Assembly (NCBI RefSeq): GCF_009026145.1
Contig: NZ_WBUE01000005.1
Coordinates: 1 to 64,000, forward strand
Source: Hyphomicrobium sp.
GTDB taxonomy: Bacteria; Pseudomonadota; Alphaproteobacteria; Rhizobiales; Hyphomicrobiaceae
Length of the DNA: 64,000 nucleotides
Direction: 5' to 3'
Below are positions 20,158 to 27,059 of this stretch, in pieces; within the stretch, counting starts at the first letter, position 1, and every line of letters begins with the position of its first letter. The notes below the pieces were generated by a model, which was not told where the DNA came from, searched no databases, and saw only the letters and a list, made by a program, of their open reading frames with translations. A program made the position numbers and the translations under genes.

Positions 20158-20237
20158 ACGATGACCTTTCCAACGCCCATTGTGCTCGGCGGCATGATGG
20201 CGGAAGTTGATGAACAACTCTCGCCTCGCCGGTGGCC

Positions 20238-21998
20238 ATGCTCCCTCGCCAGATCCTACGCTTCGCCGCGCCTGCCCTGGCTATCGTCATGGCCGCGTCC
20301 GCCCAGACGCAGCTCGTCGATCCGCGCAGTGCGCCCGAGGCTGCGACGGGGACCGAAAACCACCAGCTGGCGACCGCCAAGCGGCACATGGTCTCCGCCG
20401 CCAACGCCATCGCCGCCGATGCCGGCCGCGACATGCTGCGCGCCGGCGGCTCGGCCATCGATGCCGCCATCGCCACACAGCTCGTCTTGAACCTCGTCGA
20501 GCCGCAGTCGAGCGGCATCGGCGGCGGGGCGTTCATCCTCCACTGGGATAATGCCAAGGCGGAGCTGAAGGCATACGACGGGCGCGAGACGGCGCCGGCA
20601 TCGGCGCGTCCCGACCGCTTTCTTGTCGACGGCAAGCCGATGCCGTTCGACGAAGCCGTGCTGTCGGGCCTCAGCATCGGCGTGCCCGGACTGGTGCGCC
20701 TATTGGAGGACGTCCACAAGCAGCATGGCAAGCTGCCATGGGCGAAGCTGTTCGAGCCGGCGATCCGCATTGCCGAGCAGGGCTTCGAGATTTCGCCGCG
20801 CCTGCATTTCCTTTTGCGCCTCGAGGGCGCCGACAGCTTCGTGCCGGCGGCGCGGCGCTACTTCTTCACCGAAGGCGGAAGCGCGCTGCCAATCGGGCAC
20901 CGGCTGAAGAATCCGGCCTTTGCGGCGACGCTGCGCGCCATCGCGGCGGGCGGTTCGGCCGCCTTCTACGAGGGCCCGATCGCGCAGGCGATCGTGGACG
21001 CAGTGGCGTCAGCGCCGACCGCTCCAGGCGGCATGACGCTCGACGACCTCAAGGGCTACAAGGTGAAGGAGCGTGCACCGCTTTGCGTGACCTACCGCGG
21101 GCACGAGGTGTGCGGCATGGGCGCGCCGTCCTCGGGGGGCACCACCGTGGCGCAGACCCTGAAGCTGATCGAGACCTTCGACCTCGGTAGCAGTCCGGAT
21201 GCGGCGCTCAATGCGCACGCCGTGCATCGCATCGCGGAGGCGCAGAAGCTCGCCTATGCCGACCGCAACCGCTTCCTCGGCGATCCCGACTTCGTCGCCA
21301 TTCCAGAGGGGCTGCTCGATGAGACCTACCTCGCGCAACGTCGCGCGCTCATCGATCCGCAGCGCGCTGTCGACAAACCGCAGGCCGGCGCGCCACCTGC
21401 ACCCAAGCGCCAGTCGTTCGGCGTCGATGCAACCATCGAGCGGGCGGGCACCAGCCATATTTCGATCATCGATGGCGACGGCAACGCCGTGGCCATGACA
21501 ACGACCATCGAGGGCGCATTCGGCTCGCACAACTGGGCGGCGGGCTTCCTACTCAACAACGAGCTGACGGACTTCTCCTTCGTGCCGGTCGACGCCGCCG
21601 GGCTCCCGGTCGCCAATGCCGTCGGAGCGGGTAAGCGCCCGCGCTCGTCCATGGCGCCGACCATCGTCTTCGATGCACGGCGGCACGTCGAAGCCGTGCT
21701 CGGCTCGCCGGGTGGCAGCCGCATCATCCTCTATGTCCTCAAGACGCTGATCGCGTTGCTCGACTGGCGCATGGACGCCCAGCAGGCGGCGGACCTCACC
21801 AACTTCGGCAGCCAGGGGAGCGGTCTCGAGATCGAACTCGACTGGCCGGCGGTGCCGCTGGCGCTCACCTTGCGACCGCTGGGGCACCGAATCGCACCTT
21901 CGCTGATGAATTCCGGGATCCACATCGTCATGCGGCGAGGGGGTGGGCTCGAAGGCGCCGCTGACGCGCGTCGGGAAGGGGCCGCACTAGGGGATTGA
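20238..21998 (+). CDS. ggt: gamma-glutamyltransferase
   Basis: Periplasmic Ntn-hydrolase that cleaves gamma-glutamyl bonds of glutathione and transfers or hydrolyses the glutamyl group. The precursor self-cleaves before the catalytic Thr, here in AGTSHISIIDGDGNAVAM (about residue 408). The large-subunit signatures SGIGGGAFILHW and the small-subunit VGAGKRPRSSMAP are present. A signal peptide ends near ASA-QTQLVD. The ATG at 20238 follows an in-frame GTG at 20232 used by the track. It ends 54 bases before the preferred thiO start. Confidence 0.92.
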   Translation: MLPRQILRFAAPALAIVMAASAQTQLVDPRSAPEAATGTENHQLATAKRHMVSAANAIAADAGRDMLRAGGSAIDAAIATQLVLNLVEPQSSGIGGGAFILHWDNAKAELKAYDGRETAPASARPDRFLVDGKPMPFDEAVLSGLSIGVPGLVRLLEDVHKQHGKLPWAKLFEPAIRIAEQGFEISPRLHFLLRLEGADSFVPAARRYFFTEGGSALPIGHRLKNPAFAATLRAIAAGGSAAFYEGPIAQAIVDAVASAPTAPGGMTLDDLKGYKVKERAPLCVTYRGHEVCGMGAPSSGGTTVAQTLKLIETFDLGSSPDAALNAHAVHRIAEAQKLAYADRNRFLGDPDFVAIPEGLLDETYLAQRRALIDPQRAVDKPQAGAPPAPKRQSFGVDATIERAGTSHISIIDGDGNAVAMTTTIEGAFGSHNWAAGFLLNNELTDFSFVPVDAAGLPVANAVGAGKRPRSSMAPTIVFDARRHVEAVLGSPGGSRIILYVLKTLIALLDWRMDAQQAADLTNFGSQGSGLEIELDWPAVPLALTLRPLGHRIAPSLMNSGIHIVMRRGGGLEGAADARREGAALGD

Positions 21999-22052
21999 GC
22001 GCGGCGCCGCGGCATGCGAACGGTAGGCGCCCCGCAACCCAACAATGAAGCA

Positions 22053-23054
22053 ATGCCCGCGAGCTCCCGCTCCATCACGGTGCTCGGCGCCGGAATCCTC
22101 GGTCTCTGGCAGGCGCTGACGCTTGCCCGCGCCGGGCATCGCGTGCGCCTCCTCGAGGCCAGCGCCGAGCCGTTCGCGGATGCGGCGAGCCTCTATGCCG
22201 GCGTCATGCTGGCGCCCGAGCGCGAGGCCGAGACGGCGCCCATGATGCTGCGTCAGCTCGGCCGTGAAGGGGTGGCGCTGTGGCGCAACCTTTGTCCGGC
22301 CTTGAAGACGAATGGCAGCCTCGTCGTTGCCGCCGCCCGCGACCGCGGCGAGCTCGATCGCTTTGCCCGGCGCACGCAGGGACATCGTCTCCTCGATGCC
22401 GCCGAGATCGATGTGCTGGAGCCCGACCTCAAAGATCGCTTCACCGCCGCGCTGTTCTTTCCCGAAGAGGCGCACATGCCGGCGCCGGCCGCGCTGGCGT
22501 TCTTGCTGGCGGAAGTGCAACGGGCCGGCGTCGACATCGTGTTCGGGGTCGCATCGCCGGGTGAGGAGGAGACGGTCATCGACTGCCGCGGGCTGGCGGC
22601 GCGCGATGCGCTACCCGAGCTGCGCGGCGTGCGCGGCGAGCGGGCGCTGATCCGCACGCGCGAGGTCGCTCTGCGGCGCCCCGTGCAGCTGCTGCATCCG
22701 CGGCTGCCGCTCTATATCGTGCCGTGGGAGGACGGCCTCTACATGATCGGGGCGACGGTGATCGAGAGCGAGGATGCAGGTCCCGTGAGCGTGCGCTCGG
22801 CGTTGGAGCTGCTGGGCGGTGCGTATGCCGTGCATCCCGCGTTCGCCGAGGCGGAGATCGTCGATCTCGGCGCTGGCGTGCGTCCTGCCTTCCCCGACAA
22901 CATGCCACGCGCCATCGTGCGCGAGGGCGGAAAGCGTATATTCGTCAACGGTGCCTACCGGCACGGCTTTCTGTTGGGGCCGGTGCTCGCGCGCGCCGTT
23001 GCCGACTACCTAGAGAGTGGTGCAACGTCGGAACTGATACGCGCAGAGAATTGA
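22053..23054 (+). CDS. thiO: FAD-dependent glycine oxidase ThiO
   Basis: Oxidises glycine to the imine used by ThiG in thiazole synthesis for thiamine. A Rossmann FAD motif sits at the N-terminus (ITVLGAGILGLWQALTLARAGHRV, quoted in part). The C-terminal ThiO/DAO signature around VNGAYRHGFLLGPVLARAVADYL is clear. ATG 22053 starts 7 residues before the FAD strand; the track start at 22014 adds 13 residues. The gene is shorter than many ThiO proteins, at 333 residues. It is separated from thiSGE by two minus-strand genes, unlike the usual contiguous thiOSGE order. Confidence 0.85.
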   Translation: MPASSRSITVLGAGILGLWQALTLARAGHRVRLLEASAEPFADAASLYAGVMLAPEREAETAPMMLRQLGREGVALWRNLCPALKTNGSLVVAAARDRGELDRFARRTQGHRLLDAAEIDVLEPDLKDRFTAALFFPEEAHMPAPAALAFLLAEVQRAGVDIVFGVASPGEEETVIDCRGLAARDALPELRGVRGERALIRTREVALRRPVQLLHPRLPLYIVPWEDGLYMIGATVIESEDAGPVSVRSALELLGGAYAVHPAFAEAEIVDLGAGVRPAFPDNMPRAIVREGGKRIFVNGAYRHGFLLGPVLARAVADYLESGATSELIRAEN

Positions 23055-23059
23055 TGAGC

Positions 23060-24238
23060 TTAGCCGGCACGGGCGAGGAGCCCTGCTGCGCGCCCCTGCG
23101 CGACGGCGCGAACCTGGGCTCCGATCTCCGGGTTGCGGTCGATGAAGCGATGGAAATCGTCGCAGTCGAGCACCAGGAGATCGGTCGACTTGACGGCCGT
23201 CACGGTTGCTGTGCGGCGCTCGCGCGTCAAAAGCGCCATCTCACCGCAAAAGTCGCCCTCTCCAAGCCGCACCTTGCCCGTCGGAGCGTCGACCTCGAGC
23301 TCTCCACTGGCGATCAGATACATAGCGTCCCCCGGCTCGCCCTTGCGGATGATGACGGTACCGGCGGGGACCGTGCGCGCCTTCAAGATGGCGACGAGAT
23401 CGGAGATCGAGGCCGCATCGAGGTGGGCGAACAGCGGCACGTGGGCGACCATGGCGAAGGTCACGACGAAATCCCTGCGGCGGATCTCCTCGTAGAAGCC
23501 GCGCCCGATGATGGCGACGGGCAGCGCGAAGCAGAAGATGCCAAGCATCACAGTGATCGCCGCGATCATGCGGCCGAGCGCCGTCACTGGAGTGAGCTCG
23601 CCGCCACCGATCTTGGCGAGCATGGCCGCCGACCACCACATGGCTTTCGGCATATCGCCAAGCCGCTCGGGCTGCATTTCCCCTTCCACCGCGTGCATGG
23701 CGGCAGCCGCTGCCAGCATCACGCCGCCCAAGATGATGACGCAGGCGAGCAGTGCGCGCCGTTCCGCCGCGAGCACGCGCCCGATGGTCGCCAGCGCCGG
23801 CGAATAGCGGGCAAGCTTCAAGAAGCGTACCAGCCGGGTCAGGCGCAGGGCCGGAACGCCGGGGAAGAGAAGCTCGAGCAGCAGCGGCACGAAGGCCAGC
23901 GCGTCGATGACCATCATCGGCGTCGCGGCAAAGCGGGCCCGGGCCCGCCAAGCACCGAGCTTGTGCAGCAGCGGATGCTCCGGCGCCACCCACAGGCGCG
24001 CTGCATACTCGACGGCGAATACGAGCACGCACAGCCTGTCGAAGAGCTGCAAGTTCTCTCCGTAGGCGGTTTCTATATCGGGAAGCGTCTGCGCGAGCGT
24101 TGCCGCGACGTCGGCGAGAATGACGAGCACTAGGATCCAGTCGAGGACCCGCGAGGCGAAATCCCGGCGACGTCCATGTTCCAGGATGTCGAACGCTCGC
24201 TCGCGCGCAGTCGGATGCCTGGGTTCCGCGTCGCTCAA
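23060..24238 (-). CDS. six-TM cyclic-nucleotide-binding channel with altered pore
   Basis: Homologue of the bacterial cyclic-nucleotide-gated K+ channel MlotiK1. Six membrane segments lie at about residues 30-240, with Arg residues in S4 (RLTRLVRFLKLARYSP). A cAMP/cGMP-binding domain follows at about 265-380, with the phosphate-binding cassette GDFCGEMALLTRERRTATV. The selectivity filter is not canonical: where K+ channels carry T-x-GYGD, this protein reads AKIGGGELTPVT. S6 (VAIIGRGFYEEIRRRDF) otherwise matches MlotiK1 well. It may be a non-selective or non-conducting nucleotide sensor. It lies convergent with thiO, 5 bases apart. Confidence 0.85.
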   Translation of the reverse strand: MSDAEPRHPTARERAFDILEHGRRRDFASRVLDWILVLVILADVAATLAQTLPDIETAYGENLQLFDRLCVLVFAVEYAARLWVAPEHPLLHKLGAWRARARFAATPMMVIDALAFVPLLLELLFPGVPALRLTRLVRFLKLARYSPALATIGRVLAAERRALLACVIILGGVMLAAAAAMHAVEGEMQPERLGDMPKAMWWSAAMLAKIGGGELTPVTALGRMIAAITVMLGIFCFALPVAIIGRGFYEEIRRRDFVVTFAMVAHVPLFAHLDAASISDLVAILKARTVPAGTVIIRKGEPGDAMYLIASGELEVDAPTGKVRLGEGDFCGEMALLTRERRTATVTAVKSTDLLVLDCDDFHRFIDRNPEIGAQVRAVAQGRAAGLLARAG

Positions 24239-24378
24239 CCAGCACCTCTTTCAAGGCCGCTTCGGGCATTGCGGCTCGAAAGCCGCCGTGCATGCCCGTT
24301 GCGCCAGTCTAGCCCAGGAGCATCGGCTTGGGAGCGGACGTTCGAATGGTGGTTACGCGGACACGTCTCGCGGGCTCG

Positions 24379-25143
24379 TCAGGTGACGACGGTCGCCTTG
24401 GGGCCCATCATCGCCTGGATCTGCCGCAGCGAGCGCGAAGCGCGCCACACGTTCTCGATGCGGAACACCTCGTTGCCGCCGCCGAAGATGGCGATCTTGC
24501 CTTCGATGTCGCTGGTGCCGAGGCCGACGATGCCGAGGCCGAGGATCTTGTGGTCGAGGATGTCGTCGCTGAAGCGGGTCAGGCGCACGTGCATCACCGA
24601 ATAGCTTTCCGGAGCGCGCCCCAGGATGCTGGCGAAGCGCTGCACACGCTCGATCTGCGCGCCGCGGAAGCGCCAGTAGCTCAGGCGGTCGAAGCCGAAG
24701 ACGATCACCACCCAGACGACGAACAGAGCCGCGGAGACCATCATGTAGAAGGCGAGGTTCATGTGCACGAGAATTGCGGGCGGTGTCTTGAACAGACCCT
24801 CGATGCTCATGATGAACTGCGTTCCGACGGCCGCGCCGATGAGCAGCAGGATGAGGAGAATGGAGCCGATGCCGCGTGCCTTGACGGTGGTGGCGAGCGC
24901 GACGAACAGCAACAGCATGGTGAAGGAGATGCCGACCCAGGCGCTAGGGTGAATGAGCAGCGGCTTGCCGCCGCCGATGGTGAAGGTCTCGCCCTGCGCG
25001 TAGGTGAGGAGGGCGCAGAAGAAGCCGTAGGCCCACACGACCCACCAGTAGAGAATGGGAGAGTGTGGATAGATGCGCACTTCCGTCGGAGCGCCAGCCG
25101 CAGGTGCGGCCTGCGGAGCCGTCTCAAGCCCAGTCGACGCCAT
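24379..25143 (-). CDS. hypothetical multi-pass membrane protein
   Basis: A 254-residue protein of no recognised family. The N-terminus is Ala/Pro-rich. Four hydrophobic segments follow (around YWWVVWAYGFFCALLTYA, ISFTMLLLFVALATTV, SILLILLLIGAAVG and MMVSAALFVVWVVIVF). A cytosolic C-terminal domain of about 90 residues (ILDHKILGLGIVGLGTSDIEGKI, quoted in part, and IENVWRASRSLRQI) resembles membrane-associated PH-like folds in its strand pattern, but this is weak. It is upstream of the channel gene on the same strand with a 140-base gap. Confidence 0.7.
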   Translation of the reverse strand: MASTGLETAPQAAPAAGAPTEVRIYPHSPILYWWVVWAYGFFCALLTYAQGETFTIGGGKPLLIHPSAWVGISFTMLLLFVALATTVKARGIGSILLILLLIGAAVGTQFIMSIEGLFKTPPAILVHMNLAFYMMVSAALFVVWVVIVFGFDRLSYWRFRGAQIERVQRFASILGRAPESYSVMHVRLTRFSDDILDHKILGLGIVGLGTSDIEGKIAIFGGGNEVFRIENVWRASRSLRQIQAMMGPKATVVT

Positions 25144-25359
25144 GCTATCCCCCCGAGCCCTGGTGCTGGGACGTTAGCGAGCCTGGCGGCTATAAATTCA
25201 ACTAATAAACTCGCTTCGTCCCTATATGCAGCTATTCATGGCACTGGGCGTGGAGTACGTCAACGCGAGTAACGGCCGAGCGCGCTTGAGATTTCGGGCC
25301 TGAAGCTGTTGAATTGCGGGCAGATGCACGGCGAGGACGACGATGCGGGGAGCCGCGAA

Positions 25360-25581
25360 GTGAGCGTTGAGACGCGCTGCAAGGTGGACATCCTGGTGAA
25401 CGGCGAGACGCTGGCGACGTCGGCGGCGACGCTGCACGAGCTCGTTGCCGAGCGCGGGCTTGCCGGCGCGCGCATTGCCACGGCGCGCAACGGCACCTTT
25501 GTCCCCGAGCGTGCACGCGCGATGACCGCACTGCAGGCCGGCGACCGCATCGAAATCGTCTCTCCCCGTCATGGCGGCTGA
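25360..25581 (+). CDS. thiS: sulfur carrier protein ThiS
   Basis: Ubiquitin-like sulfur carrier; its C-terminal Gly is adenylated and thiocarboxylated, then donates sulfur to ThiG. The sequence ILVNGETL, a helical middle, and the terminal SPRHGG fit the family. GTG 25360, with GGGGAG seven bases upstream, gives 73 residues, close to the usual 65-70; the track start at 25309 would add an acidic leader. It lies 9 bases before thiG. The upstream 215 bases show no TPP riboswitch. Confidence 0.85.
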   Translation: MSVETRCKVDILVNGETLATSAATLHELVAERGLAGARIATARNGTFVPERARAMTALQAGDRIEIVSPRHGG

Positions 25582-25590
25582 GCTGCATCA

Positions 25591-26415
25591 ATGAACGCTC
25601 CCGAGCTGCCAGCCAAGGCAAAGAGCGCGCTGACGCTATACGGCGTGGAGCTGCCTTCGCGCATGCTCATCGGCACTGCGCAGTATCCCTCCCCGCACGT
25701 GCTGGCGAGCGCGGTGGAGGCGTCCGGCGCCGGTATCGTCACCGTGTCGCTGCGGCGCGAGCAGGCGCGCGGGCGCACGGGCGAGCGGTTTCTGGAGCTG
25801 ATCGAGGCGCTGGGCGTGCGGGTGTTGCCCAACACGGCGGGCTGCCACACGGTCAAGGAAGCAGTGACCACCGCGCACATGGCGCGCGAGGTTTTCGACA
25901 CCGACTGGGTGAAACTCGAGGTCATCGCCAATGACGACACGCTGCAGCCGGAGTTATTCGGGCTCGCCGAGGCAGCGGCGGCGCTCAACGCCGATGGCTT
26001 CAAGGTGCTGCCCTATACGACCGAGGATTTGTCGGTCGCCGAGCGGCTGCTCGGCGCCGGCTGTCAGGTGCTGATGCCCTGGGGGGCACCGATCGGCACC
26101 GGGCGCGGTCTTGCCAACCCTTACGCGCTGCAGAGCCTGCGCGCCTACTTCCCGGGCGTGCCGCTGATCGTCGACGCCGGCATCGGCGCGCCCTCGCACG
26201 CCGCGCAGGCGATGGAGATGGGCTTCGACGGCGTGCTGCTCAACACGGCGGTGGCCAAGGCCGGCGACCCGGTACGCATGGCGCAAGCGTTCGCGCGTGC
26301 CATCGACGCCGGCCGTACGGCCTATGAAGCCGGCTTGATGGGCGTGCGGGACATGGCCCAACCGTCGACACCAGTGGCCGGCACGCCGTTCTTTGAGCTG
26401 AAACGCGACCGATGA
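25591..26415 (+). CDS. thiG: thiazole synthase ThiG
   Basis: TIM-barrel enzyme that condenses deoxyxylulose-5-phosphate, dehydroglycine and ThiS thiocarboxylate to thiazole phosphate. The Schiff-base lysine lies in [13 protein letters not shown], and the family segments [21 protein letters not shown] and [14 protein letters not shown] are intact. At 274 residues it has normal length. It overlaps thiE by 4 bases (ATGA), indicating translational coupling. Confidence 0.94.
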
Positions 26416-27059
26416 GTGGCACACGCTGCGGCGGGCTCGACGTTTTCTATCCCATTGTACCGGATACAAGTTGGGTCGGCCGTTTGGCGCCGCTCGGCGT
26501 GCGCACCCTGCAATTACGCATCAAGGCCGCAACGGCTGCCGAGGTGCGCCGGCAGATCGCTGAAAGCCTGACGGTTACGCGGCGCTACGGTTGCCAGCTG
26601 ATCATCAACGACTTCTGGCGCGAGGCGATCGAGGCCGGTGCCGACTACGTCCACCTCGGGCAGGAGGACCTTGCCGGCGCCGATGTTGCCGCCATCAAGT
26701 CGGCAGGAATGCGCCTCGGCATCTCGACGCACAGCGAGGACGAGCTCTCGACAGCTCTCGCCGCCGGCCCCGATTACGTGGCGCTGGGACCGATCTACGA
26801 AACCAAGCTCAAGGCGATGAAATGGGCGCCGCAAGGGCTGACGCGCATCAACGCCTGGAAGGCGCGCATCGGATTGCTGCCGCTTGTCGCCATCGGCGGC
26901 ATTACGCCGGAGCGCGCTGACGGCGTTGTCGCAGCCGGCGCCGATAGCGTCGCCGTGATCACCGACTTTATGACGGCGCAACATCCTGAGCGGCGCGTCG
27001 AAACATGGCTCGACTGGGCAAAGGCGCATCGCCCATCGGAGCCGAGATATGTTCGCTGA
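26412..27059 (+). CDS. thiE: thiamine-phosphate synthase ThiE
   Basis: Joins the thiazole and pyrimidine phosphates to thiamine monophosphate. The TIM-barrel signatures [34 protein letters not shown] (quoted in part), [21 protein letters not shown] and AIGGIT are present. The third gene of the thiSGE operon, its ATG overlaps the thiG stop. Length (215 residues) is normal. thiC and thiD are not in the window. Confidence 0.92.

Follow-up and report, generated by a model that had tools for sequence, protein, structure and literature searches.

Few motifs in biology are as conserved as the K+ filter. K+ selectivity requires Thr hydroxyls together with a Tyr that braces the filter. MlotiK1 (MloK1, mll3241), a cyclic-nucleotide-modulated K+ channel, carries this filter as TTGYGD in a six-segment layout followed by a cyclic-nucleotide-binding domain (CNBD), with a WW pair in the pore helix and a phosphate cassette in the CNBD; SthK and other bacterial GYG channels have a similar domain order, a similar CNBD and the canonical filter. 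Among CNBD channels, whole clades that have left TVGYG are the metazoan CNG channels, with a TIGE filter, and the plant CNGC. A survey that took in CNBD and Kv-like channels, mostly from eukaryotes, and that mentions plant CNGC describes significant filter departures as a matter of individual channels rather than clades, save for metazoan CNG (PMC7576140). Here we consider a cyclic-nucleotide-gated-channel-like gene in the first 64,000 nucleotides of contig NZ_WBUE01000005.1 of Hyphomicrobium sp. (GCF_009026145.1; this whole stretch is called the window below). Its product shares with MlotiK1 the common six-segment and CNBD layout, the WW pore helix and the phosphate cassette, but the filter reads KIGGGE and a Thr of lower S6 is replaced by an arginine, Arg246. 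SthK and the other GYG bacterial channels match the window protein more weakly overall, and the metazoan CNG and plant CNGC are eukaryotic, have an acidic ring and keep the inner-site Thr, whereas the ring in the clade described here is basic. Our literature search found no basic filter described in a prokaryotic CNBD channel, although the main survey of the group lay outside that search, so that absence is not proven.

In the window protein, PF00520, PF07885 and PF00027 all score over their cut-offs (Ion_trans at 1e-22, cNMP_binding at 3.5e-21), giving six transmembrane segments with Ion_trans and then the CNBD. The closest protein in the PDB is MlotiK1, with its two top entries at 1.3e-57 and 1.9e-57, the homology at 1.9e-57 spanning residues 93-383 and thus pore and CNBD, and MlotiK1 is again nearest by Foldseek. 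The MlotiK1-type layout with S6 and cyclic-nucleotide domain that the initial annotation had claimed is therefore borne out by the Pfam and PDB matches and by the tree described below, and the reading frame is clean, as it had also stated. Since every tested feature of the MlotiK1 group except the filter is present, the protein is, as judged from its sequence, a member of the MlotiK1 family by descent, but it does not qualify as a K+ channel.

The phmmer alignment is gapless throughout pore helix, filter and S6 and on either side of them (window AMLAKIGGGELTP, MlotiK1 VTLSTTGYGDTIP), and it sets K209-I-G-G-G-E214 in place of T-x-G-Y-G-D, with residue 209 encoded by 23614-23612 and residue 214 by 23599-23597 on the minus strand, exactly where the initial annotation had located it. 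The filter region, MLAKIGGGE, does not match the K+ filter TxxT-x-G-Y-G-D, and the T-V-G-Y-G signature is absent from the protein. From a hand count on the standard MlotiK1-KcsA alignment, we take Lys209, Ile210, Gly211, Gly212, Gly213 and Glu214 to correspond to KcsA Thr75, Val76, Gly77, Tyr78, Gly79 and Asp80, which agrees with the earlier placement of a lysine at the inner filter edge. By the same alignment Met206 falls at Thr72, the first Thr of TxxTVGYG, which is lost as well, and Arg246 at Thr112, near the gate. Because the Thr hydroxyls and the bracing Tyr are both missing, K+ selectivity is almost certainly lost, as had been proposed, if the mechanism of the family is taken as a guide. 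Met206, Arg246, the regular pattern of Arg and Lys in S4 and the lack of a canonical channel in the genome go beyond what had been noticed before.

The replacement is not peculiar to this genome. An orthologue search of 103 genomes of the window's own alphaproteobacterial family (Hyphomicrobium-like), in which counts are among the top matches in the genomes searched, yielded 17 distinct full-length or near-full-length orthologues, the window protein included, from six genera of this one family; an eighteenth, from a seventh genus (G008), is broken by a contig end after KIG. The orthologues are 64-81% identical to the window protein, the next homologues 36-49%. At the filter the clade has the consensus A-K-I-G-G-[GSP]-[EDG] (KIGGGE in 12 of the 17, KIGGPG in 3, KIGGSE and KIGGGD in 1 each), and both T and Y are missing from the key sites throughout. 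The 70 non-clade homologues have TVGYGD (65), TTGYGD (2), TIGYGD (2) or TVVYGD (1), and since they keep T-x-[GV]-Y-G-D at the aligned place, the possibility raised earlier that the true filter lies elsewhere in homologues is excluded, and the conserved subfamily that a homologue search had been expected to reveal or not does exist. The earlier stress on the full GGGE needs correction: the last two filter positions vary within the family (GE, SE, GD, PG), so the conserved signature is K-I-G-G plus the distant Arg246. Two single variants were seen on the way. A canonical homologue (L022 1501-2646) has Val for the first signature Gly in its TVVYGD, the only such case, and one clade member (L099 3691-4884) has a one-residue insertion directly after the filter (GGGDLAPPLTTLGR).

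In a maximum-likelihood tree of 50 proteins, the 17 KIGG proteins group together (100/100) inside the canonical channels, on a long stem (0.75), and their sister is a set of canonical channels from another family of the order (99/96). A single clade within canonical channels is most simply explained by one origin, with a single change away from a GYG filter on the long branch that leads to the clade. Outside the family, samples comprising 398 genomes of the order, 385 of the class and 399 of the phylum turned up nothing above 55% pore identity; those matches that were read have a Y-G-D filter, although these were top matches only, so that independent inventions could escape. A plasmid collection gave distant, shorter matches only. 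A second pore match in the window's own genome (C35) was set aside as a spurious frame with stops ahead of a CNBD.

K-I-G-G is invariant in all 17 proteins, and its codons vary only synonymously (AAG/AAA, ATC/ATA, and all four GGN at both glycines). For within-genus pairs, the ratio of nonsynonymous to synonymous substitution rates (dN/dS) is roughly 0.06-0.28 over the whole gene and 0.017-0.143 over the pore, or, excluding one very close pair, 0.06-0.12 and 0.017-0.113. The mean entropy per column is lowest in S6, at 0.30, followed by the filter at 0.53, the CNBD at 0.85 and S1-S3 at 1.00, and purifying selection that is strongest on pore and S6 favours a working pore. The residues that all clade proteins share but that canonical channels lack or almost lack are A204, K209, G212, V230, M231, R246 and Y249 in the pore and A113, F261 and A262 outside it. 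Such residues take up 7 of the 29 eligible sites of pore helix, filter and S6 but 3 of 78 in the rest of the protein (Fisher p = 0.004), a gathering that fits a rebuilt pore and not decay. All 17 clade proteins have Arg at position 246, where the 70 others have T, S, A or N, and by this pattern Arg246 belongs to the same change as the filter. The outer acidic residue is dispensable in the clade (E/D in 14/17, Gly in 3/17). Conserved as it is in 17 proteins, the filter change probably marks a protein that still works, as channel or as sensor, but with a pore of a very different kind.

The sensors, for their part, are intact. A basic residue stands at each third position of S4, as in a voltage-sensor domain and unlike in MlotiK1, with R135, R138, K141 and R144 invariant, and its acidic partners in S2 (FAVEYAAR) and the Asp in S3 (ID) can be read off the sequence. 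In the phosphate cassette, the two residues that contact cyclic AMP (cAMP), E333 and R342, are kept throughout the clade. Class III cyclase domains occur in 9/9 genomes tested, four of them in the window's genome, so that cAMP or cyclic GMP should be available.

We believe the best reading, with about an even chance of being correct, to be a low-conductance, non-K+-selective, cAMP- and voltage-gated homotetrameric pore. Let us assume a homotetramer of the MlotiK1 type, in which cAMP at the C-terminal domain and movement of S4 would still open the S6 gate. Four Lys209 at the innermost filter site and four Arg246 near the gate would then line the conduction path, and with the filter-bracing Tyr now Gly, the pore would stay symmetric with two basic rings. 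Such a pore would be expected to repel divalents and not to tell K+ from Na+, and some anions might pass, much as in arginine-edited (Q/R site) GluA2 homomers. Among channels with a basic ring at the tip of a pore loop, these come closest as a functional precedent, the Q/R site presumably aligning with KcsA Thr75, although GluA2, a P-loop channel of inverted orientation with other gating domains and topology, is not a close homologue and serves as an analogy. With gamma-2, GluA2(R) homomers have a modelled open conductance of 3.9 pS and negligible Cl- permeability, and without auxiliary subunits a P_Cl/P_Cs of 0.14 (PMC6754398); Ca2+ permeability is abolished by Arg at the Q/R site (PMC2974739). 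Several points weigh against this reading. With eight basic side chains along it, the path might just be blocked; pore residues would stay conserved too if S6 merely relays movement; dS is near saturation in most pairs, which makes the dN/dS values rough; and an AlphaFold monomer built from a five-row alignment (window and L037-L040) has a mean predicted local distance difference test score (pLDDT) of 62, with residues 195-214 below 50, and is of no use for filter geometry.

The alternative that survives best, somewhat less probable yet one we take seriously, is a non-conducting sensor, in which the Lys and Arg rings would seal the pore while S4, S6 and the C-linker would still move in response to voltage and cAMP, and the message would be passed to another protein or the domain would act as a cAMP-responsive scaffold. 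In its favour, the fixed filter chemistry makes K+ conduction implausible and the sensors are fully kept, and in one genus (g6) the neighbouring gene, encoding a patatin-like phospholipase with a cAMP domain, offers a conceivable partner. However, no gene neighbour is conserved across the genera of the clade, and constraint is strongest in pore helix, filter and S6, where a sealed pore would need neither an invariant K-I-G-G nor Arg246.

An unlikely scenario is a cAMP- and voltage-gated anion channel derived from a K+ channel, its selectivity reversed such that the lysine ring in the filter and the arginine ring near the gate give the pore a preference for Cl- or some other anion. It is supported by the invariance of both basic rings along the path, by an outer acidic ring that is dispensable (KIGGPG in three proteins) and by the Cl- leak of GluA2(R) (PMC6754398). 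However, GluA2(R) stays mainly cationic and its Cl- flux is negligible with gamma-2 (PMC6754398), and a backbone that follows the K+-channel path would keep the carbonyls of the filter turned to the axis.

That the protein is a regulatory subunit co-assembling with canonical GYG subunits seems very improbable. Three clade genomes (G008, G017, G031) do carry a canonical MlotiK1-type paralogue, but most lack a full-length canonical CNBD channel, and in the window's genome (G000; 4.3 Mb, estimated 100% complete) and in G032 no other Ion_trans and no other Ion_trans_2 protein was found, which excludes pairing with GYG subunits of that superfamily there and contradicts co-assembly as a general explanation; in these two genomes the protein would so work without a canonical partner. 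A sequencing error, pseudogene or decaying relic, which a filter deviating at almost every position might suggest and which the initial annotation had thought resequencing might reveal, has a negligible chance and is refuted by the identical filter in independent assemblies (among them the one-contig genome G430), the 0 internal stops in 17 orthologues, a dN/dS of ~0.1 and the purely synonymous changes in K-I-G-G.

The wider interest lies in a bacterial clade whose filter became basic in a single replacement and has been kept so ever since, while the sensors stayed intact; some of its genomes have no further channel of the family. Nature thus offers, in homomeric form, a test of how a P-loop pore can turn out after the loss of Thr75 and Tyr78, and of whether a K+-channel scaffold can turn towards anions or into a pure sensor. 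The features of the gene and its surroundings are collected in Table 1.

Table 1. Position of the channel gene, its functional elements and neighbouring genes (window coordinates, except for the g6 phospholipase loci)
Feature	Coordinates	Strand	Remarks
Channel gene, cyclic-nucleotide-gated-channel-like	23060..24238	-	TTG start, 392 aa, no internal stop
S4 voltage sensor, R132-x2-R135-x2-R138-x2-K141-x2-R144	23807..23845	-	
Pore helix, residues 198-207	23618..23647	-	WW pair kept; A204 and M206 replace I/V and T of TxxTVGYG
Filter, K209-I-G-G-G-E214	23597..23614	-	Gapless alignment to MlotiK1
S6 and start of C-linker, residues 217-255	23474..23590	-	24/39 positions invariant in clade
Arg246, lower S6	23501..23503	-	Second basic ring
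CNBD	23123..23383	-	PF00027; phosphate cassette GEMALLTRERRTATV; E333 and R342 invariant in 17/17
Gamma-glutamyltranspeptidase	20232-21998		Listed with thiamine cluster, 20232-27059
thiO	22014-23054	Opposite to channel	Thiamine cluster
254-aa membrane protein	24379-25143	-	Directly upstream of channel; no Pfam or NCBIfam match
thiS	25309-25581	Opposite to channel	Thiamine cluster
thiG	25591-26415	Opposite to channel	Thiamine cluster
thiE	26412-27059	Opposite to channel	Thiamine cluster
g6 phospholipase, L108	3589-5508	Same as channel	
g6 phospholipase, L109	2692-4494	Same as channel	
g6 phospholipase, L106	4384-6173	Same as channel	

In the window, the channel gene and the membrane-protein gene split the thiamine cluster between thiO and thiS-thiG-thiE. 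The position beside thiO is found only within the window's genus, where two other genomes have it in common, and in the two nearest relatives no counterpart of the membrane protein was found next to the channel. In the three genomes of genus g6, the channel gene is followed, on its own strand, by that of the patatin-like phospholipase considered above, which has a CNBD of its own and an NTE P-loop-like domain, and it is possible that channel and phospholipase form a cAMP-responsive pair there.
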